DNA from: Paramacrobiotus metropolitanus
Lineage: Eukaryota; Tardigrada; Eutardigrada; Parachela; Macrobiotidae
Reading direction: 5' to 3'
Assembly (NCBI RefSeq): GCF_019649055.1
Contig: NW_026570333.1
Coordinates: 186,001 to 250,000, forward strand
DNA: 64,000 nucleotides
Shown: one piece after another, positions 34,156 through 60,070 of the stretch
Numbering within the stretch: the first letter of the stretch is position 1
How the letters are laid out: each line of letters begins with the position of its first letter
The notes under the pieces: generated by a model
The model's input: the letters and a program-made list of their open reading frames with translations, nothing else
Databases searched by the model: none
What the model was told of the DNA's origin: nothing
Translations under genes and position numbers: made by a program

Positions 34156-35179
34156 ACTAACCGGCGTCCCAGGGTATGTTTTCGCTGGCACGAAATCGTC
34201 CAACCCCGATGGCCGGGAGATTCATCCGGCTGGCCAGATGTGTGTCCAGCACTTGCGATAACAGTGTCGCCGTCTCCTGCACCGTCTCCGCGATGGTGTT
34301 AACATTGGTGGTAATGAACATGCAGCCATCCCGTTCGATGCGCAGATGAAAGCGATGGCAGTCGTGCAGATCGAACAAATCCGGTCAGCGCTGAAAAGCC
34401 TCGCGAAGGTGCCTGATAATGCGGAACTTGTCAGAGGCATCGGTTAGAAGATTCTGCGCCCTGGCGAAGGGAACGAAGTGTTTAGTGTAGAGCAAGCCTC
34501 TGCGGCGCTTCAGCAACGGCGGGCCACTGGGCGGCAACCGACCGGCAATTTGGCCACCCTCCACCAGTTCAGGCGGGGCGTTCGTGCTGGACGCACTGGA
34601 TTGGAGGGGAAAAAAAGGTTTGATGTAAAACATCTCACAAGTTTGGCAACCGAAAAGGCCGCCCCACAGGACGGCGGGTCGGAAGCGCCACGGCCCGTGG
34701 TCTTCATCCCGCATTGCAGCGTACACTAGAACATTGCGGCAGCCTGGGTAGTTGTGTGTCCGATCATCCCAGAAGGACGGCAGTGGCCAGATGTTTTCCT
34801 TGTGTATCCACCGCGTCGTGGCCTTTATACTGTCAAAGTGAATGAGAGCGTTGTCGCCGTCCATATCCTGAATGTATCCCAGCCACCACGTGCCGTCAGC
34901 GATGCAGACGACGACGGTGTCCTGGTAGATGATCTGGGTGGCATCCGCTAACAGCGATCACAACTGTGACCGGCAAAAATGTCCCCCCTGTCCCCCCGGA
35001 CATTTTTGCCGTGTCCCCCCTGCCACCATCTCCAAAACCGTAACCCTTGGCACAGAATGTACATGGGGACCTACAACGGAAAGCTGATTTTCAGGTCAAT
35101 CGGTGACCTTTGAAAAGCTGCCACCAGCGTTACCACAGCGTTACCTGTCTAAAACAACTGAGGGACACTGGTTACCGTA

Positions 35180-37092
35180 GGGATATTACTGCCATAACAA
35201 ACTTCCAGATCTCCGGCATGGGGGACATCATTGCCCGAACAAAATTATTGGTGTCCGGCATGGGGACTGCCGAATGAAATTACTGGTGTCCGGCATGGGA
35301 AATATTGCCGGAATGAAATTACTGGTGTCCGGCATGGGAGACATTATTGCCGGAAAGAAATTATTGTGTCCGCCATGGGGACATTATTGCCGGAATCAAA
35401 TTACTGGTGTCCGGCATGGGGACATTATTGTCGGAATGAAATTGCTGGTGTCCGGCATGGGGACATTATTGCCGGAATGAAATTGTTGGTGTCCGGCATG
35501 GGGACATTATTGCCGGAATGAAATTGTTGGTGTCCGGCATGGGGACATTTTGCCGGAATGAAATTATTGTGTCCGGCATGGGGACATTATTGCCGGAATG
35601 AAATTACTGGTGTCCGGCATGGGGACATTATTGCCGGAATTACTGGTGTCCGGCATGGGGAAATTATTGCCGGAATGAAATTACTGGTGTCCGGCATGGG
35701 GACATTATTGCGGAATGAAATTGTTGGTGTCCGGCATGGGGACATTATTGCCGGAATGAAATTTGGTGTCCGGCATGGGGACATTATTGCCGGAATGAAA
35801 TTATTGGTGTCCGGCATGGGGACATTATTGCCGAATGAAATTACTGGTGTCCGGCATGGGGAAATTATTGCCGGAATGAAATTACTGGTGTCCGGCATGG
35901 GACATTATTGCCGGAATGAAATTGTTGGTGTCCGGCATGGAACATTATTGCCGGAATGAAATTGTTGGTGTCCGGCATGGGGACATTACTGCCGGAATGA
36001 AATTATTGGTGTCCGGCATGGGGACATTACTGCCGGAATGAAATTATTGGTGTCCGGCATGGGGACATTACTGCCGGAATGAAATTATTGGTGTCCGGCA
36101 TGGGAATATTGCCGGAATGAAATTACTGGTGTCCGGCATGGGGAAGTTATTGCCGGAATGAAATTACTGGTGTCCGGCATGGGGACATTATTGCCGGAAT
36201 GAAATTACTGGTGTCCGGCATGGAGACATTATTGCCGGAATGAAATTGTTGGTGTCCGCATGGGGACATTATTGCCGGAATGAAATTGTTGGTGTCCGGC
36301 ATGGGGACATTATTGCCGGAATGAAATTATTGGTGTCCGGCATGGGGACATTATTGCCGGAATGAAATTACTGGTGTCCGGCATTGGGGACATTATTGCC
36401 GGAATGAAATTACTGGTGTCCGGCATGGGGACATTATTGCCGGAATGAAATTACTGGTGTCCGGCATGGGGACATTAGTGCGGAATGAAATTGTTGGTGT
36501 CCGGCATGGGGACATTGCCGGAATGAAATTGTTGGTGTCCGGCATGGGGACATTATTGCCGGAATGAAATTATTGGTGTCCGGCATGGGGACATTATTGC
36601 CGGAATGAAATTACTGGTGTCGGCATGGGACATTATTGCCGGAATGAAATTGTTGGTGTCCGGCATGGGGACATTATTGCCGGAATGAAATTATTGGTGT
36701 CCGGCATGGGGACATTATTGCCGGAATGAAATTATTGGTGTCCGGCATAGGGGACATTATTGCCGGAATGAAATTATTGGTGTCCGGCATGGGGACATAT
36801 TGCCGGAATGAAATTGTTGGTGTCCGGCATGGGGACATTATTGCCGGAATGAAATTATTGGTGTCCGGCATGGGGGACATTATTGCCGGAATGAAATTGT
36901 TGGTGTCCGGCATGAGGGACATTATTGCCGGAATGAAATTGTTGGTGTCCGGCATGGGGGACATTATTGCCGGAATGAAATTGTTGGTGTCCGGCATGGG
37001 GGACAGTATTGCCGGAATGAAATTATTGGTGTCGGCATGGGGACATTATTGCCGGAATGAAATTATTGGTTGTCCGGCATGGGGGACATTAG
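35180..37092 (+). repeat. 41-bp tandem array, left terminus
   Basis: About 46 copies of a unit containing TGGTGTCCGGCATGGGGAC and ATTATTGCCGGAATGAAATT. Many copies carry one-base gains or losses and T/C changes, so it is less uniform than the right array. Each unit can pair TCCGGC with GCCGGA. Open frames here are periodic read-through, not genes. Confidence 0.95.
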
Positions 37093-37099
37093 AATAGAA

Positions 37100-40000
37100 T
37101 AGAATATAGTAGTAGAATATGGTTGCCTAGCTGACGGATGTAGGTGCCCATGGACTGATATGTTTTACAGACAAGACATGAGTGTTGTTAGTCAGTTTTG
37201 ATTTACCGATAAATATCCAGCGCACCGGTGGGGAAACGGAAGTGCCGGGACGACTGCAAATAACTCCACCAAAGCAGATCGCAAAAAAAGATTATGCGTG
37301 CCGTTTAATTTTGTTGCATTTAACTGTTTCAGGTTTTTTTATGAACGAAACATTTGAAACTAACGATCAGTAGTGGTAAAAAAATCTTATCAAGAACGAT
37401 TGCCTGCGGCCTTCCGCGACTGTACTGTGAGCTCGAAGAGCAGGCCACCTTCCACTTTGACAGTGCTCTCAGTCCAACTGAAAAGGTCACGCTGGCTTGA
37501 TTGAAATTCATGCATGTTAGGCATGATTCACAAGAGGTTAGGATGACAAACAATCCAGACTTATCACCATTAGACCACAGCCTAAAATAAATGGTTAAAA
37601 AAATTTCGCATGGGAGGAAGCCTTGCACTGTCCCCGGGTTGAGCAGTATTTTGATGCATGCCAGCTCTGGTTTTGACCTCACTGGAACTCGAAACACGCC
37701 CTCAGTGTAGAAAATTTTAGTGTAAAAGATGCTGGAGACATCGGGCAACTATGTAAAAAATGAATAATTATTTATTTGTTGACGGCTGGCTTGTGGTAAT
37801 TTTTTGAGAAAACAACCCCAACTTGGCTGAGCAGGGCTGTAGTTGATATCGCGTTAATATCACGTAAATTTCTCACCATTGTTTTATAAACAAACATTGC
37901 CTTTGCTACAAAGGCAGTGTTTTGGCTATGGTTAGAATCTGCAGTTTGTTGCTACAGCCTGTCGGGCTACACAAAATTGTAACTAAATATTCAAAATCAA
38001 TAACGATTAGAACCCCGGCACGTCTTTTAAAAAGCGGCGCATACACCATATGGATCTCAGCACTTTATTCTGTGGATAAAAGAGATCTGAAAATACAGGG
38101 GTGCCGCGCCAAGTTCGGACAGTTGCGCAAATTAAATTTAAAAATATTTCTGCACTTGTTTTTACTTTTTATTTTGCACTTATCTAGTGCAACTTTTTAT
38201 TGCGGATCTGAATATGCTAAATCTTGGAATGCTAGATGGGGTAGCAAGCAGCCAACCGGTTAAAACAAGTTAAAACAATTAAAACATGCGGTAGTGGTTA
38301 CCTCCAGAGGGCTTATAACTGACCTTCTGGAAAATTCCCCAAGTGATATTTTTTCACTGACTTTTTTATAAACTGTTGAGTGGCCCTAAAGGTATGTGGT
38401 ATGGGTGAGAAAAAGCTTTCTCGTGATTGGTGCTCGCGGTGACCTAAAAGAAGTTGTATCTCCCTTATTCTCGCATAGGTTTGTATGTTAACACTCGCAC
38501 AATTTCACGTTCGATTTACGTCGGCTTTTCCTGTGCGCCATTAGGCAGCTCCAATCACGATCGTGCAACACGCCCATTTCCGGCTGTGTTACGAGGCTTT
38601 TACACACTTGCGCCAAATTTAACATTCCAGTTACAGTTTGCCTGATCTGATTTTTTTTATCATTTCCTGATTTTTTTATAATTCATTTACTTTTGTGCTT
38701 CGCAGAGTGCAGTTTAAGTTCCGATATTAGAAAATCTGGGTCGACCCATTGTAGTTTTGTAAGTTTTTTAATCTTATCGTCGGTATTATAGAGTATTGAT
38801 TTGCAGAGCAAGACTGGGACGCTCAGTAATACCCTTGTCATGGGCCTTGTGCCTGCGAAAAATATCGTTTTCTGAATAATTTATTTTAACTCGTTCTTCA
38901 AAGTTTGCGATATCTACCGTAGCTCAAAAACACAGCCAGCAGCGCACATCTGCAGAATCTACGAGAAAAGATGGTCGATGTGACGATGTTAAGTCTACTT
39001 TTCAAATGGAGTCGACTCCTGGGTAGTTAGCCGTGTTTATTTGAGCCGTCACTATGGCAAATTCGGTTCTTAGTTTTGCGAGATGGACTCATCTAGGAAG
39101 CCGAGGCTCCCATTTACTCTGAGGAACTGGTCTCCATTGCGCTATTTCCAGATAATAACAATCACAACAATGTAACGAACTGCTTATCTTCTGACGTACG
39201 GGATCGATAAACATATTCGGACGTTTCATCAGTGAGCTCTTCGGTTTCTGTATAAACCAGCAATTCAACTTGCTCTGACTCTGAGGCTGTTTTTACACGG
39301 TTGCTGCTGAGGTCGACCTCAGACGCGGTGTTCACACGGCTCTAATTAGCAAATGATATTATTTTACATTTTAGATTATTTTGGAGGAAAACATATTATC
39401 AATAATGAAAAGCAAAGAAAACTATCGAATAACAATCATGCCTCAACCACCTAAATAATCAGCAAATAAAATATTGGTGAGATTAAATTAGCGCAGTCTG
39501 CTACAAAGCCAGTCCGAGGAGACGGTAGAATCGCGGACAGAGCGATTTTATAGTCTCCTGTGTCACAAACTTTTCTTCCCGTATCAACAAAACAATTTTC
39601 CTAAATGTCAAATGGTATTAAAATATGCTGCATGACAGGATCTAGCAACGTACGTTGTCCGATTTGAAAACAAAAATCTGGTCGAGCGTAAATAAGGAAA
39701 ACGTGTCACCTCCGGTTCGGAGTGTTCCCGTTTTGTTGGCCAAAATTACAACAGTTGGTCTGCTTTCCTAAAATTTGATCTAGTTTGATAGCTTATCAAA
39801 TTCTCTAGGAATACATGTAAGGCTAGAGAGCGTGGCACAACTACAGAATTTGTTTTCGGTTTTTTAAGCATTTATTGCGCCTGAGCGGCAGTAGAAATTG
39901 TGCGAGTGTTAAGCAGAGCGCCTGAAAGAATGTGGTTGCCAAGCGCTTAGAGATACAGAATTTCGAGATGATGTTTTCGAAGAATAAAACATGCATTAAA

Positions 40001-42425
40001 GGATTTTTGTAGTCTATCTGTTATCTACCAAGCATGCGACAAAATACAGCTGGCAGAAGAACCGAAAAAAAACCGATAAAGCAGTTGGCAAATAAATTTT
40101 TTGCTGGTGCGAAAATGTGTTGCAGCGGGATGTCGCGGGCCTTTTGGGCAAACACAAGAGCTTAAAGTGTTGCTCGGTGCTTAGCCAACAAGTTATTTTC
40201 ACATACTAGACACATCCACCTTCCGCGATTCTTGTGCAAGCTCTCAAAGGGCACCGTCCACCATTCTGACGGTGCCTCCAGTAATACTGCAAAGGTCACG
40301 TCGCCATCATTGAAACAGAATGGAATCAGGCGAATTGAGAAAGGGCTATGAATGGCAAACAGCCCAGAATAAACTTTTTCAGACTATAGCATCAGTGGAA
40401 ATTCTTAACAAATTTCAAGTGGGAGGGAGACTAGGATGATCCTTGGGTCGAACCATTTTATTCAGGTCTGCTTCGATTTAAATCTCGCTGTATTGCAAGC
40501 CACGCCCTCAGCCTAACGACCCATAGTGAAAAAGATGCCTAACACGTACGGTAACAATAAAAAAATTGAATAAGTAGTAATTTTTTGGTGTGTGACCTAC
40601 AGTTATTTTTAAGAGAAACTGTTCGAACTTGGCGCGGCACCCTGTAATTGAACATTTTACTTAACTACGCTACAGGATTCCAAGGTTTTTGAGCCGGCAA
40701 AAATCACCGTCCCTCAAATCTACTTGGCGCAAACGCATACGAACTCAGCTTCATTTTTTAAGGAAACATTACACTGGTTTCAGCAGCTAAAAAAATTGTA
40801 CAGTACCGTATATAGGAATCCATCCAGTGAGTTTGAGCTGCTTACGGTTTTCCAGAAAACAATCCAAAATAAGGCCCGCCATTTTGGCGTGTTTTTACGC
40901 CATATCTGAATTAAGACAAAGAAAGCCAAATTTCTAAGGACACTTGTATCGTAATCTGAAAACAGTGAACTTAATATAGATGCAGCCCGGCAATTGTGTT
41001 AATTAACTTACAAAATATTGTTTCCCGCCATTTGTATTTTTGTTTTACATATATTAATGGTTACGGAAAATTTTAATGGGGAATGGGCCCGATAAGCCAG
41101 CATAAAAAACCGGCATTATTCAATATATCGGTAATAAGCCGAGAGGTGATCAAGGGTTGGGGTCGGTGGTAACTTTTTTATCGCTTATTACCGCCCTTCC
41201 AAAATATTCAGCAACCGATATCTTTAAGGGATTTTTTCTGGAAACTGTTGAGTGGCCAAAAACTTAAGGCGCCTTCAAAACAAATTCTCTCTCCCATAGA
41301 CTTGTATGTTACAAAGTGCCCGCTAAAATATTATTACGTCTTTGCCTAGCGCACAATTCAAAGTAACCGTCAGTTGATATTTTCTTGAATGAAGCACTGA
41401 ATGCTTTGACCAACTTTAATGTCAACAGGGATGTCTATTGCATAGGCGGGAAGATGGAGGTGCCAGACTAAAGAAAAGAAGCCTTACAAAGCTATGGCCA
41501 AAAAAGTTATGCTTGCTTTTAAATTTTGTTGGAGCATAACATCTGGGGTTAATTCTGTAAATAAACAAGCTAGAGTTGGCATCTGGTAAACTTTGAACAA
41601 GTTTTTGTCACAAACGAAAATTTCTAATGTTTCGTCGCTGCTTGGCGGGCGTGCAAGTGAGGTCACCGTAAAATTATTCGACAGTGCCAAATTCAAATTG
41701 TAAAGGTCACACAAGAGTTGGGGGCATGGTTTGTTCTCAGGTGTATTACGTTGCACGCCTAGTTGGGACAGTCTTATCACTTTTGGGCTAGAGTGACAAC
41801 GGAATTTTTGTTAAATTTTAAGTGGAAGGAAGGATTTTACGGTAGATGGGTCCGGTTGCATTTTTAAAGGGTTTGCTCTGATTGTGATCTCACTGCAATT
41901 TGAAACGTGGTCTCAGCATCAAATCTTTAAGTGCAATAGGTGCTGGACACATATTCTGTAGGACAAACAAGTAAAAGTTAAATAATTATTTATTTGTTGA
42001 CGACTGGCCTACAGTAATTTATTGTAAAAACGGCACCAACCTGGCTGCATATTGTACTAATTTAAAAAGTCCGGGAGCCCATTAAATTAGTACAATATCA
42101 AACGGATTCACCGTTTTCAACTTACAATTCATGTTTATCTAGATAATGCAGCAGTATAATAATTTTTTCGGGCGTCGATTTAAGTACATCAGGCATTCCA
42201 GCCGGTAGTGCTTGACGTGACCGATCAGTGCTCGCAGTGACAACGGAGTCTAGGGTGCTTCACACAAACCTTAGGTTCGAAAGTTGAAGATTCATAAATT
42301 AGAGCAGTGCCGTTACCTCAAATATGATCTAGTAGGCAAGAGGTAAAATTTTACTCTCCCATTTCTACTTATTAACGAATGAGAAAATCTCATTCCAGCC
42401 ACCTCACGTCAAACTTTGCCAATAA
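37100..42425. repeat. Foldback interior with a triplicated module
   Basis: Three diverged copies of a block of about 450 bp lie at 37,400-37,840, 40,200-40,650 and 41,600-42,060. They share cgccctcag, aaaagatgc(t/c), ..aataattatttatttgttgac..ctggc and aacttggc. The first two are followed about 1 kb later by another shared block (aactgttgagtggcc near 38,370 and 41,243), so the module is about 1.2 kb. The first block is open on the minus strand for 139 codons (37329-37748) and the other two keep similar residues (EGV..VRSK) with stops. It may be a decayed repeated ORF; not recognised. Confidence 0.55.
42049..42098. repeat. 17-bp-arm perfect inverted repeat
   Basis: Arms 42049-42065 and 42082-42098 are exact reverse complements; inside the foldback interior. 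Confidence 0.9.
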
Positions 42426-42430
42426 GGCCC

Positions 42431-45400
42431 TCATGCCGGACACCAGTAATTTCATTCCGGCAATAATGTCCCCCATGCCGGACACCAGTAATTTAATTCC
42501 GGCAATAATGTCCCCCATAGCGGACACCAGTAATGCATTCCGGCAATAATGTCCCCATGCCGGACACCAGTAATTTCATTCCGGCAATAATGTCCCCATG
42601 CCGGACACCAGTAATTTCATTCCGGCAATAATGTCCCCATGCCGGACACCAGTAATTTCATTCCGGCAATAATGTCCCCATGCCGGACACCAGTAATTTC
42701 ATTCCGGCAATAATGTCCCCCATGCCGGACACCAGTAATTTCATTCCGGCAATAATGTCCCCCATGGCGGACACCAGTAATTTCATTCCGGCAATAATGT
42801 CCCCATGCCGGACACCAGTAATTTCATTCCGGCAATAATGTCCCCATGCCGGACACCAGTAATTTCATTCCGGCAATAATGTCCCCCATGGCGGACACCA
42901 ATAATTTCATTCCGGCAATAATGTCCCCATGCCGGACACCAGTAATTTCATTCCGGCAATAATGTCCCCATGCCGGACACCAGTAATTTCATTCCGGCAA
43001 TAATGTCCCCATGCCGGACACCAGTAATTTCATTCCGGCAATAATGTCCCCATGCCGGACACCAGTAATTTCATTCCGGCAATAATGTCCCCCATGGCGG
43101 ACACCAGTAATTTCATTCCGGCAATAATGTCCCCATGCCGGACACCAGTAATTTCATTCCGGCAATAATGTCCCCATGCCGGACACCAGTAATTTCATTC
43201 CGGCAATAATGTCCCCATGCCGGACACCAGTAATTTCATTCCGGCAATAATGTCCCCATGCCGGACACCAGTAATTTCATTCCGGCAATAATGTCCCCAT
43301 GCCGGACACCAGTAATTTCATTCCGGCAATAATGTCCCCATGCCGGACACCAGTAATTTCATTCCGGCAATAATGTCCCCATGCCGGACACCAGTAATTT
43401 CATTCCGGCAATAATGTCCCCATGCCGGACACCAGTAATTTCATTCCGGCAATAATGTCCCCATGCCGGACACCAGTAATTTCATTCCGGCAATAATGTC
43501 CCCATGCCGGACACCAGTAATTTCATTCCGGCAATAATGTCCCCCATGGCCGGACACCAGTAATTTCATTCCGGCAATAATGTCCCCATGGCGGACACCA
43601 GTAATTTCATTCCGGCAATAATGTCCCCATGGCGGACACCAGTAATTTCATTCCGGCAATAATGTCCCCATGCCGGACACCAGTAATTTCATTCCGGCAA
43701 TAATGTCCCCATGCCGGACACCAGTAATTTCATTCCGGCAATAATGTCCCCATGCCGGACACCAGTAATTTCATTCCGGCAATAATGTCCCCATGCCGGA
43801 CACCAGTAATTTCATTCCGGCAATAATGTCCCCATGCCGGACACCAGTAATTTCATTCCGGCAATAATGTCCCCATGCCGGACACCAGTAATTTCATTCC
43901 GGCAATAATGTCCCCATGCCGGACACCAGTAATTTCATTCCGGCAATAATGTCCCCATGCCGGACACCAGTAATTTCATTCCGGCAATAATGTCCCCATG
44001 CCGGACACCAGTAATTTCATTCCGGCAATAATGTCCCCATGCCGGACACCAGTAATTTCATTCCGGCAATAATGTCCCCATGCCGGACACCAGTAATTTC
44101 ATTCCGGCAATAATGTCCCCATGCCGGACACCAGTAATTTCATTCCGGCAATAATGTCCCCCATGCCGGACACCAGTAATTTCATTCCGGCAATAATGTC
44201 CCCATGCCGGACACCAGTAATTTCATTCCGGCAATAATGTCCCCCATGCCGGACACCAGTAATTTCATTCCGGCAATAATGTCCCCATGCCGGACACCAG
44301 TAATTTCATTCCGGCAATAATGTCCCCATGCCGGACACCAGTAATTTCATTCCGGCAATAATGTCCCCATGGCGGACACCAATAATTTGATTCCGGCAAT
44401 AATGTCCCCATGCCGGACACCAGTAATTTCATTCCGGCAATAATGTCCCCATGCCGGACACCAGTAATTTCATTCCGGCAATAATGTCCCCATGCCGGAC
44501 ACCAGTAATTTCATTCCGGCAATAATGTCCCCATGCCGGACACCAGTAATTTCATTCCGGCAATAATGTCCCCATGCCGGACACCAGTAATTTCATTCCG
44601 GCAATAATGTCCCCATGCCGGACACCAGTAATTTCATTCCGGCAATAATGTCCCCATGCCGGACACCAGTAATTTCATTCCGGCAATAATGTCCCCATGC
44701 CGGACACCAGTAATTTCATTCCGGCAATAATGTCCCCATGCCGGACACCAGTAATTTCATTCCGGCAATAATGTCCCCATGCCGGACACCAATAATTTCA
44801 TTCCGGCAATAATGTTCCCCATGCCGGACACCAGTAATTTCATTCCGGCAATAATGTCCCCATGCCGGACACCAGTAATTTCATTCCGGCAATAATGTCC
44901 CCATGCCGGACACCAGTAATTTCATTCCGGCAATAATGTCCCCATGCCGGACACCAGTAATTTCATTCCGGCAATAATGTCCCCATGCCGGACACCAGTA
45001 ATTTCATTCCGGCAATAATGTCCCCATGCCGGACACCAGTAATTTCATTCCGGCAATAATGTCCCCATGCCGGACACCAGTAATTTCATTCCGGCAATAA
45101 TGTCCCCATGCCGGACACCAGTAATTTCATTCCGGCAATAATGTCCCCATGCCGGACACCAGTAATTTCATTCCGGCAATAATGTCCCCATGGCGGACAC
45201 CAATAATTTGATTCCGGCAATAATGTCCCCATGCCGGACACCAGTAATTTCATTCCGGCAATAATGTCCCCCATGCCGGACACCAGTAATTTCATTCCGG
45301 CAATAATGTCCCCATGCCGGACACCAGTAATTTCATTCCGGCAATAATGTCCCCATGCCGGACACCAGTAATTTCATTCCGGCAATAATGTCCCCATGCC

Positions 45401-46048
45401 GGACACCAGTAATTTCATTCCGGCAATAATGTCCCCATGCCGGACACCAGTAATTTCATTCCGGCAATAATGTCCCCATGCCGGACACCAGTAATTTCAT
45501 TCCGGCAATAATGTCCCCATGGCGGACACCAATAATTTGATTCCGGCAATAATGTCCCCATGCCGGACACCAGTAATTTCATTCCGGCAATAATGTCCCC
45601 ATGCCGGACACCAGTAATTTCATTCCGGCAATAATGTCCCCATGCCGGACACCAGTAATTTCATTCCGGCAGTAATGTCCCCATGCCGGACACCAGTAAT
45701 TTCATTCCGGCAATAATGTCCCCATGCCGGACACCAGTAATTTCATTCCGGCAATAATGTCCCCATGGCGGACACCAATAATTTGATTCCGGCAATAATG
45801 TCCCCATGCCGGACACCAATAATTTCATTCCGGCAATAATGTCCCCATGCCGGACACCAGTAATTTCATTCCGGCAATAATGTCCCCATGCCGGACACCC
45901 AGTAATTTCATTCCGGCAATAATGTCCCCATGGCGGACACCAGTAATTTCATTCCGGCAATAATGTCCCCATGCCGGACACCATAATTTCATTCCGGCAA
46001 TAATGTCCCCATGCCGGACACCAGTAATTTCATTCCGGCAATAATGTC
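42431..46048 (-). repeat. 41-bp tandem array, right terminus
   Basis: About 88 copies in the reverse orientation to the left array, much more uniform. A rarer variant (GCGGACACCAATAATTTGATT) recurs at about 44,371, 45,192, 45,521 and 45,767. Spacings are close to whole multiples of 41 bp (20, 8 and 6 units), pointing to block duplication inside the array. Confidence 0.95.
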
Positions 46049-46322
46049 CTTACGGTAACCAGTGTCCCTCAGTTGTTTTAGACAGGTAACGCTGTGGTAA
46101 CGCTGGTGGCAGCTTTTCAAAGGTCACCGATTGACCTGAAAATCAGCTTTCCGTTGTAGGTCCCCCATGTCACCATTCTGGCCAAAGGGTTATGGTTTTG
46201 GAGATTTTGGAGATTTTTTTTGGGGACACGGCAAAAATGTCCGGGGGGACAGGGGGGACATTTTTGCCGGTCACAAGTGTGAGCGACCGATACCGCGGAA
46301 TTGCCCCCCAAAAAGAATCCAT

Positions 46323-51300: not shown

Positions 51301-52190
51301 TCTGGCACGAGGAACAACTGCGTTCTTATTTTAACGAAATGGCCACGCGCAAGAGTGCTCTCGCGCGTAGCCCTGACCTATTTTTAAAAGAGGCTCGACA
51401 CATTTTGGTCAAGAATGTCTTCGTGTCGGCAGAGCAAAGTGGTGCCTAAACTTTTATGCAAAAATCTTGCCCATCATGAAATTATATCAGCGTCGCGGCA
51501 AGTTGGTGAGGATGGAAATTTAACGCAGATATTTTACGCGCTACTAAAATTTTTGCGCAGCCAGTAAATTAACTAAGCTCTCTAATACTGTAAGTGCACC
51601 AGTGCTTGTTGCAGCGGTATTCCTGATCATTTGGAAATAAACAGTTCAATTCCCAGTTATTTGTTAAATTTTCGAAACACGCTGTTGTGGGGATTATTGG
51701 CAAACCAAGAAGTGACCACTGCTAACGTGTTGGTCTGCTGGAAATTAACGCCATCCTTTGACGTGACGTGAAGAAACAGTGTGGTTTCCACTCGCTGTTT
51801 GGACCCAGCCACCCAGGTAGTTATTCAGGCTTTTTGTACTCGAAAACTGTGTGAAACACGGATAGGTAAAGTTTTAAACCAAAAGTTTTAAACGGTTCCA
51901 GGCAGCAGCACACCAGCCGGTTTGTGCGCGCATATTTTGAGTTTTGCTAACGGCACTGTAGAGTTCTTTAGTAATGGCGTTTTTCTCACATAACATGTGT
52001 ATTTAATGGAGTGGAAAACAGCCATAAGAGCACCAGCAGAAAAACGACACGCCTGCTTCCAGTGCAGAAGGTTACGGAGCGCATGCAGTGTCCACAAATC
52101 GGTCGCTCGGCAGGTTTAATAGATAACTATGCACTAGAAAACGTCGAGCTTTCTATCCAAGAGTAGTTTGAGTAGACAGCAAACTTTTAT
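48311..52190. other. Long intergenic stretch
   Basis: No gene is established. A short frame (48871-49035, 54 codons) and parts of 49,085-49,230 have coding-like composition but no recognisable family or splice structure. At about 49,905-50,030 lies a single-arm relative of the 1945-2610 foldback element. The rest is featureless. Confidence 0.45.
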
Positions 52191-52213
52191 ACTGGATGAT
52201 TTCTCAGGTCATA

Positions 52214-55200
52214 ATGGATTCCGGTTATGGAGCGATTCCGCGGTATCGGTCGCTGTTAGCGGATGCCACCCAGATAAACTGCCAGAACACCGTCGTCGTT
52301 CGCAACGCTGACGACACGTGGTGGCTGGGATACATTCAGGATATGGACGGCGTTTACGCTCTCATCCACTTTGACAGCACAAAGGTCACAGCGCGATGGA
52401 TACACCAGGGGAACATCTGGCCACTGCTGTGGGGCAGGAGTGATAAAATACAAAAAGATTACCCCAATGTTCCAGCACACGTGGCACTGCGTGATGAAGA
52501 CAACGGCCCGTGGCGCTTCCGACCCACCGTCATATTGGACTCCTTTTACGGTTGCCAAACGTTTGATTGTGAAATGTTCTACATCAAATCCAGTGCGTCC
52601 AGCCCGAACGCCCCTCCTGAACTGGTGCATAAGGGCCAAATTGCCGGGCGGTTGCCGCCCAGTGGTCCGCCGTTGCTGGAGCGCCGTAGTGGCTTGCTCT
52701 ACACCAAACACTTCATTCCCTTCGCCGGGGCACAAAGTCTCCTGAACGATGCCTCCGATAAATTCCGCATTATTAAGCACCTCCGCGACGCTTTTAAGCG
52801 CCACCCGATTTTGTTCCTACTGACCCACGGCGATCGCTTTTATCTGCGCGTCTCACGGGATGGCTGTATGTTCATCATCAGTACTGCTACCAAAGCGGAG
52901 ATAGCGCAGGAGACGGCGCAGCAGGAGACAGCGACAGTGTTATCGCAAGCGCTGGACACACATCTGGCCAGCCGGATTAATCTGCCGGCCATCGGGGTTG
53001 GGCGATTTCGAGCAAGCGAAAATATACGCTGGGACGCCGGTTAGTTGACATTCACACATTTCCGCATTTTTTTTGTGTAAAAGTACACTATTGTGTGAAT
53101 GTTCTCTTGGCTCATCAAGTTACACACTACCGCGCCACTACGCAGCTCGCAAGTTGTCATACTGCGAAGCGTATCAATAAATGCAATATGTAAAGGCGGT
53201 ATTATTTGTTAATACGACTGCTCGCTGCAGAGCCAACTAGACAACTGATTACAGTAGTCAGGCCCGTCTTTAGGTTTTCGGAGGGGGGGGGGAGGGCGCA
53301 CCATCGTTTTCCCCAAGGGGGAAGTATGGCGCCCGTTGTACACAGTCCCGATTTTTCAAATTTTATATGGGAATTTTAACACTCTTGTTCGGAAGCCGGT
53401 GCGCCCCCCCCCCCTCCTAAAAGACAAAAGACGGGCCTGCCTGACAATAGTGGTCAACAGAAACAGTCAATAACAGTCCTATGGCACAATAGCCATAGGA
53501 CATTCACGAAGTGCTCTGTACTCGTACGCCACTGTACGAGTACGTTCAGTCTTAGGCTCATAGGGTATAAACTCACTATTTAGAGATTTCTTAAAATTAC
53601 ATTGTTAATAGAATACTTACAACAATGTACATTCATGGATTATTGTGTTTATTACACATTAAAACTATTTAATACCGTCGCAAATGTACTTGTACTGCTG
53701 TATCCACGAAAACCATTCCATCCTGAGCAGGGGGACAACGTGGCACAGCGAAAAAACCTGGAGACTCTAGAGTCTCCAGGTTTTTATTATTTTATCGCTA
53801 GCCAGTTCCCAGATCTGGGAACTGGCTAGCGATAAAATAATAAATGCGGTACTTTACCTAGCAGATCTTACAACATTGTTAGGTGTATCGAAGTCGAAAA
53901 TTGGGAAGTATGTACAGGAAGTAAGATTATGATATATCAAATCACTCCTACAGGGGAATGTTTCTCCCGAATACTTGCACCTGCGCTACGCTATTTCAGC
54001 CTATTTGCACTATGTACGGACGGAAGTGTGCGATGCTGGTGACGTTCTCCGACTCTTGTGCACGACAACAGCGGTAGTAGAAATGGCGGGCTTGCTACAA
54101 AAGCTGAAAGAAAACCTAGTTCACTGTGTCAGTAAATTGTACAGCACACCCTACGTGGCCACAGCCGGTGACTTCCACGGAGAATGAGCGTGTATATAAG
54201 GCCGGATCATTTGATGCCACAAAGAAGCTCCGCATATGAACACCGCTAGACAGAAGCTGAAGTCATGCTGGCAGCTAGTAGCGTGATGCTCGGCAGACAA
54301 CTGCCGACTTTTGTTTCGCAAAACGCGTACTCTATACATTACAGATCGAAGGCACTTGGTGTTACGCTGGTCACAGTGTGACTACGCGTAGTTTACCGTT
54401 TAGTGTCCCTTGTGCAATACATTATTAATTCGGCATGTATTACGAATTAATCTGTTAATTTTGAACTCGCTCTTTGCCTATTTTACTTTTTTCGACTCTT
54501 TTGTAACTTGTTTCACTCACAGTAACTCTTTCGAAGCACTACGATGCCACTCGTGACCGCGTCAGTTGGCCGCTTGTGTTTTGCGGATCAGCAAAAGCCG
54601 TAGCTAGCCAAACACCAGACACCTCCAGTCCTCCACCATTTGGCAGACTGCACGACTGAGACCATGCCTGCTGTTAGCTAATATATCAGTTAAACTACCA
54701 TGAAACTAAATTAAACAAATGTAAAATAAAGTAAAAATAATAAGTTAGCTAGGCTGCATTAGCCATAGAAGTTATCGGATTATCGTAGTGCAAGTACAAA
54801 AAAACTGATACTAGAACTTCTATACGTACTTCTAGTCAGACTGACAGTGATTGTGAATGCTTTAAGTCTGACGTTTGTTTGAAACTTGGGAGTTACTGGG
54901 AGTTACTGGGATGGTGACTGGCAGTTAACTATGACTCTTCGCGAAGCCACTGCGAGATATATGGAGATTGGAGCGTAGATTTCTTTGTGTATATTTGTAC
55001 TGTAATTAAACTGCAAAAAAGTCACTGGTCAGCCTCGCCCGGACATCGTTCCCACGTCGTGGTAACTGTGGGCGGATGTTAATGTTAAGCATGGTCAGCT
55101 ATGATTGCCTTCTCCTGGATAATCAACGAAGGCTTATTAATTGAATACCTGAACCTTTCGGCATTGCAAATTTCTAATTACTGTATGGATTCCTCGCATT

Positions 55201-59609: not shown

Positions 59610-60070
59610 TCTACACGCGTTCCTCACCAGTGCGGGAACATCGCGATGATTGGCTGTGATCTTAACCAATAGAAATTGTGCAATACAACGTACTGTATCA
59701 TAACTTTAGTAGCACCTAATCAGTGGCACCTAGACATAACTGACTGTGCTGTATTCAAACATTTAGTAGCACCTAATTAGTGGCACCTAGACATAACTGA
59801 CTGTGCTGTATTCAAACATTTAGTAGCACCTAATTAGTGGCACCTAGACATAACTGACTGTGCTGTATTCAAACATTTAGTAGCACCTAATGTGTAGCAC
59901 TCACACTACCGTTTTAAAATACAGCACATAGTGTCTAGGTGCTACTAATTAGGTGCTACTAAAGTTTAATACAGTACGTTGTGTTGCACAATTTCTATTG
60001 GTTGTAATCGCAGGCTTTCACAGCCAATCATCGCGATGTTCCCGCACTAGTGAGGAACGCGTTGACCACT
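59610..60070. mobile_element. Foldback element with 57-bp tandem repeat
   Basis: Long inverted arms: about 59,612-59,745 matches the complement of about 59,930-60,065, sharing acgcgttcctcac and gcgggaacatcgcgatgatt. The left arm runs into a 57-bp unit repeated three times (starts at 59705, 59762, 59819, with a partial at 59876). A small relative of the array-armed foldback design at 35-46 kb. It ends about 270 bp before the ESD start codon. Confidence 0.8.

Follow-up and report, generated by a model that had tools for sequence, protein, structure and literature searches.

The stretch of DNA analysed here, called the window, comprises 64,000 nucleotides of contig NW_026570333.1 (C113 in what follows) of the eutardigrade Paramacrobiotus metropolitanus, and its numbering is used throughout. 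It contains an 11.3-kb element whose ends are inverted relative to each other, each consisting of a terminal motif with a hairpin, a domain of about 215 bp common to both ends and, further inwards, a long array of 41-bp units (Table 1). Elements with the same ends are found elsewhere in the genome together with 6-bp target duplications centred on CG; some of them carry exons for an integrase and a protease between their arrays, and a second foldback family encloses a related integrase.

The element in the window and its insertion site

An initial annotation of this DNA had described an 11.3-kb element with inverted 41-bp arrays of about 46 and 88 copies, and both its coordinates and these copy numbers proved to be right. 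The mirrored ends that it reported, with a terminal motif, a nested hairpin and about 200 bp of shared sequence, were recovered as well. Each end of the element starts with TGTGACCGGCAAAAATGTCC, which is followed by an inverted copy of itself, and the two form a strong hairpin (DNA fold of -16.7 kcal/mol, z score of -9.65, none of 200 shuffles being equally good). The arrays, whose right unit is the reverse complement of the left one, account for about half of the element, and their units include a sequence close to the terminal motif, oriented opposite to that of the end. Long inverted ends made of tandem subrepeats, which characterise the foldback structural class, are thus present.

The two arrays are not equally uniform: 64 of the 87 units excised from the right array are identical, while 28 kinds were found among 36 units of the left one. 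As the arms of the element also differ by 7%, the right array has probably expanded recently within an old copy. The element's own interior matches the copies on C103, C1:590103 and C1:4135707 at 91-97%, and it is interrupted by a transposon, X, into which another one, Y, was subsequently inserted.

The empty site announced in the initial annotation was confirmed in a paralogue of the gene that the element interrupts. This paralogue reads ...CTAACAGCGACCGATACC... without interruption and contains AGCGAC once; alignments with it give 77% for the left flank of the element (402 columns) and 84% for the right flank (55). The proposed target duplication, AGCGA, required some refinement, as the hexamers AGCGAT and AGCGAC do flank the element but disagree at the last base and lie 6 bp outside the canonical end. 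In other copies with a matching 6-bp duplication, the duplication directly abuts TGTGACCGG, whereas in the window an extra hexamer precedes TGTGACC on each side. These intervening hexamers (CACAAC and, read from the other side, CACACT) look like earlier target sequence that may have been carried along. Among the six remaining pairs that lack an adjacent duplication, an exact 6-base scan near the ends revealed none with an outer duplication like that of the window, although the window's own duplication, its copies being one base apart, also escapes such a scan; L051 gave a single chance match (18 and 30 bases out). Compared by eye, the outer hexamers of those six pairs match at no more than half of their bases.

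The family of the interrupted gene is large, with 117 first-look candidates genome-wide, of which 40 were scored, and several members each on C8, C27 and C113. Two members were scanned and had no Pfam match.

Table 1. Features of the element in the window, of its insertion site and of its surroundings (ORFs, open reading frames).
Feature	Position	Strand	Remarks
Interrupted member of a repeated gene family	34385-34957	-	no Pfam match at 0.001
Left copy of the target duplication, AGCGAT	34953-34958	+	
Extra hexamer CACAAC	34959-34964	+	between duplication and canonical end; among the pairs compared, in the window copy only
Left outer terminal domain	34965-35174	+	starts TGTGACCGGCAAAAATGTCC; hairpin in first 60 bp
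Left array	35212-37091	+	41-bp unit, 46.4 copies, 92% matches (Tandem Repeats Finder, as assembled)
Own interior, left part	37092-38093		93% identity with the C103 copy (L025) across 37174-38095; tested ORFs without Pfam match
Nested transposon X	38096-40644		terminal inverted repeats CAGGG(G)TGCCGCGCCAAGTT; TA-flanked; missing from the C103 copy
Nested transposon Y, inside X	38492-39908		inverted ends CACTCGCACAATTTC; TTAA-flanked; piggyBac-like by target site alone
Own interior, right part	40647-42419		tested ORFs without Pfam match
Right array	42420-46049	-	41-bp unit, 88.3 copies, 97% matches (Tandem Repeats Finder, as assembled)
Right outer terminal domain	46056-46275	-	inverted copy of the left one; 90% match over the outer ~215 bp
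Extra hexamer AGTGTG	46276-46281	+	
Right copy of the target duplication, AGCGAC	46282-46287	+	
Paralogue of the interrupted gene, empty site	52172-53041	+	opposite strand to the interrupted gene; 6 kb from the element
57-bp tandem repeat	59693-59891		3.5 copies, 97%

Copies in the genome and their target sites

The assembly searched comprises 533 contigs and 169.8 Mb. When as many as two mismatches are allowed, the 22-base terminal motif is found at 91 sites (43 on the plus and 48 on the minus strand) against none for a control with the reversed pattern, so that the ends are not unique to the window. When every plus end was joined to the nearest following minus end, at a distance of up to 13.5 kb, 26 pairings resulted; three of these share one right end on C59, which leaves 24 distinct inverted pairs of 260 bp to 12.2 kb, and the left end on C46 matches its outer rather than its nearest partner. 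A 6-bp duplication directly outside TGTGACC is exact in half of the 24 (12, C46 being counted by its outer end) and has one mismatch in four (C44, C52, C178 and C381). Another pair, on C59, is ambiguous, as its CTCGAG is palindromic and the inverted repeat continues into the flank.

The size of the arrays varies considerably: none were detected in L050 and L054 (260 bp), while L052 has about five copies per arm and C35 has 24 and 92. Given that arrays account for about half of the window element, it might be regarded as a tandem-repeat satellite folded back by inversion and not as a transposon at all. However, the dispersed copies with target duplications, the empty site and the two copies without a detected array leave this explanation with next to no probability.

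Recent activity is indicated by L045 and L046, whose interiors are 99.8% identical, and by C35 and C419, which are 95-100% identical by stretch and have nearly identical ends. A tree built from the outer 205 bp of 19 pairs groups the four ends of C35 and C419, and likewise those of L045 and L046, and shows an element's own arms as sisters in 11 cases (support, where given, of 0.32-0.99); by strict distance, with ties counted as misses, 19 of 38 arms are nearest to their own partner. In L027, L029 and L037 the left and right arms belong to separate lineages, and L051 has a strongly divergent right arm. The combination of mixed arms and no duplication in L027 fits ectopic exchange, but exchange within the element may act too, since the mixed-arm elements L037 and L029 keep their duplications (exact and with a single mismatch, respectively).

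Some unusual arrangements were found on C59. L039 (C59:750263-757374) consists of three successive left ends and one right end with an identical outer flank ending in CTCGAG; its interior is GC-rich (0.55) and holds an open reading frame of 566 amino acids, perhaps a captured gene, whose coiled-coil matches are all below the cut-off. In L038 (C59:731019 onwards), one arm continues as about 9 kb of 42-bp repeats, with higher-order periods of about 126 bp, to the edge of the piece read, and is possibly a satellite growing out of a transposon arm.

The target site was characterised from the flanks, which were read at all 91 sites; after omission of three duplicated C59 ends, a terminal domain was recognisable at 73 of 88. 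Among these 73 ends, C stands at position -4 in 65, and position -3 is occupied by G in 45 and by A in 23, in agreement with duplications of the form NNCGNN. The four pairs with one mismatch beside the ends, together with a pair of the second family (L055, GACACT/GACGCT), differ precisely at the central CG, and in each of these five the changed copy, read from outside inwards, has CA. Accordingly, CA outnumbers TG among the 73 ends by 20 to 3 (p 0.0005), and by 17 to 1 (p 1.4e-4) once two pairs with a true CA/TG target and one duplicated flank are removed. Since one strand of the gap templates each copy of the target, this asymmetry would fit a C-to-T change on the single-stranded overhang of the gap or, alternatively, insertion at a mismatched CpG, although few events are involved. 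Methylation-driven decay of CpG was set aside as a cause of the mismatches, as the observed/expected ratio of CpG in the window is 1.09 and the change is strand-asymmetric. Some cases do not conform to the asymmetry: in the window's displaced duplication it is the last base that varies, the two differences in C17 both lie away from the centre, and neither CG nor CA is found at the right end of L056.

Integrase and protease genes between the arrays

The search for fuller copies that the initial annotation had recommended was successful, as some copies enclose an integrase gene between their arrays. The long pairs on C35 (12.2 kb), on C419 (10.3 kb) and on C245 (8.9 kb), all of which have duplications that match, contain, in one orientation, a split gene with pieces of an rve integrase and of a Ulp1 protease. 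Single exons score 6.8e-8 (C35), 1.2e-7 (C245) and 1.1e-4 (C419) for rve; for Peptidase_C48 the values are 0.001, 0.00058 and 0.00097 in the three pairs, and 0.0042 in L056, of the second family. The catalytic H, D, Q and C of Ulp1 are invariant across the three aligned C48 copies. In addition, C35 contains a PHD-like piece (0.00035, below the Pfam cut-off), and one rve piece also matches Capsid_N (0.022, likewise below). By reading, three further exons were recognised in C35 and C245, one H2C2-like, one that supplies the third acidic residue (GQIEQ, GQVEQ) and one GPY/F-like; the GPY/F motif that follows the core was recognised by inspection, without a profile (KYTGPLEI... in L028 and KFLGPFKV... 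in L056). An N-terminal YP...F...LY stretch, also seen by reading, may be compared with the YPYY motif that precedes the zinc finger in Ginger1.

A genome-wide search for the integrase, in which 150 of 672 candidates were scored, gave at least 13 loci at E 1e-16 or better, the six closest of those scored being C35, C245, C419, C135, C1:3584563 and C58:172342. On C135, a fourth rve piece, with a stop, adjoins a right arm with an array of 79 copies. At the protein level, nothing was found with a single exon of 261 amino acids, and a longer integrase query retrieved one P. metropolitanus protein and ten distant rve-domain proteins that are at most 35% identical.

The loci at C1:3584563 and C58:172342 lie between the ends of the second foldback family, whose integrase is about 63% identical to that of the first. 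Its unit is of 31 bp, its termini are TGTAACCGACCAAAACGTCCGG and its terminal hairpin has a z score of -4.44; the arrays are inverted in L055, and one arm was read in L056. Its terminal motif, with up to three mismatches, occurs at 327 sites against two in the control; some of the 327 may represent an inner copy rather than an end. When the exons of L056 are joined, they score 3.4e-14 for rve and 3e-7 for Integrase_H2C2 and match the structures of foamy-virus and Ty3 integrases, with D, D and E aligned to the foamy-virus one. The ends of both families follow TGTNR (TGTGA and TGTAA). Beside the second-family element that ends at C58:175329 there is an HSP70 gene (L056:6902-7597; PF00012, 1.8e-101).

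These genes bear directly on the possibility that the elements are of the FB/Mutator type (FB, Tetris, Tm1) and are moved by a transposase of a Mutator-like element (MULE). Tetris and Tm1 do have the same gross shape, with outer, tandem-repeat and middle domains, but the accounts of them give duplications of 8-10 bp, which in Tm1 show no clear target preference, and a Mutator-type transposase for Tm1, while for Tetris they mention none as found (PMC4079207, PMC3169594). The duplications described here are of 6 bp, and thus also unlike the 9 bp of Drosophila FB, as the initial annotation had pointed out, and the enzyme pieces between the arrays are rve (rve/H2C2 in the second family) and not MULE. 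Such an origin is therefore disfavoured for C35, C245 and C419, and we consider it highly improbable. Foldback-like elements are, in any case, not necessarily related to one another, as stated in the report on Tm1 (PMC3169594).

It could also be argued that an integrase gene landed by chance in an unrelated foldback element that is moved by another enzyme. Most copies do lack an integrase, matches at E 1e-16 or better among the candidates scored being found in only 3 of the 24 pairs. Nevertheless, two families that differ in both units and termini have a related gene enclosed by their ends, and TGTNR ends and a CG-centred target suit an enzyme of the Ginger type as described (PMC2836005); a chance landing thus seems very improbable.

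Placement among known elements and origin of the arrays

Considering these results as a whole, the best explanation, which we regard as likely, is that the window copy was mobilised in trans by a Ginger1-like enzyme, that is, a Gypsy-type DDE integrase with H2C2, GPY/F, Ulp1 and, perhaps, PHD regions. Several observations weigh against it. The window copy has no recognised coding, as a Pfam search with six interior open reading frames (five from its own interior, of which one extends into X, and a sixth within X) gave no match, and it is tied to the enzyme through the shared ends. Its duplication is displaced 6 bp outwards from the canonical end, and the copy is one of 7 among the 24 pairs that have no matching duplication next to the end. 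As to the enzyme, no C48 or PHD score reaches the Pfam cut-off, and of the three single-exon rve scores only that of C35 does; two-sequence profiles of rve and of C48 matched no solved structure in the PDB, and a three-sequence C48 profile gave weak matches only (0.0067 at best). Finally, an integrase locus on C11 (47% identity), one of seven distant loci and the one inspected, showed no arrays over the 6.4 kb that was covered, and some members of the wider integrase group may thus lack foldback ends.

As described by Bao et al. (2010; PMC2836005), Ginger1 encodes a Gypsy-type integrase (H2C2, DDE, GPY/F) with a C-terminal OTU or Ulp1 domain and, in Ginger1-9_HM, PHD; it has introns and TGTNR ends, duplicates 4 bp (CCGG or CCGT) and measures 2.6-7 kb. 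The tardigrade elements share with it the H2C2 and DDE Gypsy-type integrase (by profile and structure in L056; in the first family, rve by profile and H2C2-like by reading), the GPY/F motif by inspection, the TGTNR termini with terminal inverted repeats, the C-terminal Ulp1 pieces (whose C48 scores are somewhat under the cut-off but whose catalytic residues are invariant), the introns and the CG at the centre of the target. By contrast, their duplication is of 6 bp (NNCGNN), their ends carry arrays of 31- or 41/42-bp units, with up to 92 copies in the pairs measured, and they reach 12.2 kb. They are therefore treated here as a Ginger-like lineage with foldback ends, not filed as Ginger1 because the 4-bp CCGG duplication is not found. 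The initial annotation was therefore correct in proposing a foldback-type DNA transposon with real insertions, but its suggestion of a member of an undescribed foldback superfamily had to be revised, given an enzyme that is Gypsy-integrase-like and close to Ginger1. Ginger2/Tdd, which lacks GPY/F and has a duplication of 4-5 bp at an AT-rich target, was discarded, as a GPY/F-like motif and 6-bp CG-centred targets are found here. The Ginger1 layout itself being known, what appears to be new is the combination of foldback ends with a Ginger-like integrase; literature searches on Ginger with foldback or tandem-repeat ends, which mostly covered papers outside subscription journals and did not extend to Repbase, gave no title or abstract opening describing a foldback Ginger.

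Polintons (Mavericks) also have 6-bp duplications, a Gypsy-like integrase and a cysteine protease, and their ends start with AG. The duplication length and the integrase and C48-like protease of C35, C245 and C419 would therefore suit a reduced Polinton, and a DNA polymerase B (PF03175, 9.2e-15) is found in L042, over 8 kb inwards from an unpaired left end. However, the ends here are different, being TGTNR, and the integrase has a GPY/F-like motif; none of 18 pieces of open reading frames from C35, C419 and C245 (9 + 9 scanned) matches a polymerase; and the motif search found no right end for L042, whose polymerase may be a neighbour's. Consequently, this origin appears unlikely. The piece in question (L042:8907-9506, on C148) is of the type B organellar/viral kind, two adjacent pieces have no Pfam match, and it could belong to a Polinton-type neighbour. 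A broader proposal is that of a distinct integrase-type lineage between Ginger1 and Polinton, in which the cut changed from 4 to 6 bp while the CG centre was kept, the foldback ends of the two families derived from a multiplied inverted terminal motif, and a deaminated CpG target or gap left the strand-specific scar; we consider it possible, but rather doubtful.

The target duplication of Galileo, of the P superfamily, is of 7 bp, and membership of P/Galileo is ruled out both by this length and by the enzyme, which is an integrase and not a THAP transposase. Galileo does provide, despite its P-type THAP transposase, the closest functional parallel to the arrays, as transposase binding sites have been identified within the tandem repeats of its long ends (PMC3688188). 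In Tetris, similarly, 37 bp are common to the outer domain and the repeat unit (PMC4079207). In the tardigrade elements, the unit holds the terminal motif at 17 of 18 positions (42-bp form) or 16 of 18 (41-bp form) in the first family and at 15 of 17 in the second, a likeness that none of 20,000 mononucleotide shuffles equalled in either family. The units are oriented opposite to the terminal motif in the window, in both arms of L055 and in one arm of L056, as is the second half of the hairpin; the exception is L053, whose left end continues straight into units of the same orientation. Because the unit contains the terminal motif in both families, the arrays look like multiplied inverted inner copies of a putative integrase-binding site. 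According to this model, the integrase would bind the terminal motif as well as its near copy in the unit and would cut with a 6-bp stagger around CG. Multiplication of the unit would raise local binding and the pairing of both ends, while unequal exchange might make the arrays grow and shrink, with the two arms partly homogenised.

Foldback ends have been documented for enzymes of the Mutator and P types, and here they are found with an integrase of the retroviral type. Two families whose units differ both have them, which suggests that such a shape may arise repeatedly for a common reason, namely tandem copies of the enzyme's own putative binding motif. The inverted arrays may also account for the chimeric copies in the genome. 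Moreover, these elements offer a testable case of a shift in integrase stagger from 4 to 6 bp at an unchanged target centre, which bears on the relationship between Ginger, Polinton and long terminal repeat elements. If the CG-to-CA asymmetry is true, target duplications would, in addition, record damage of the single-stranded integration gap.

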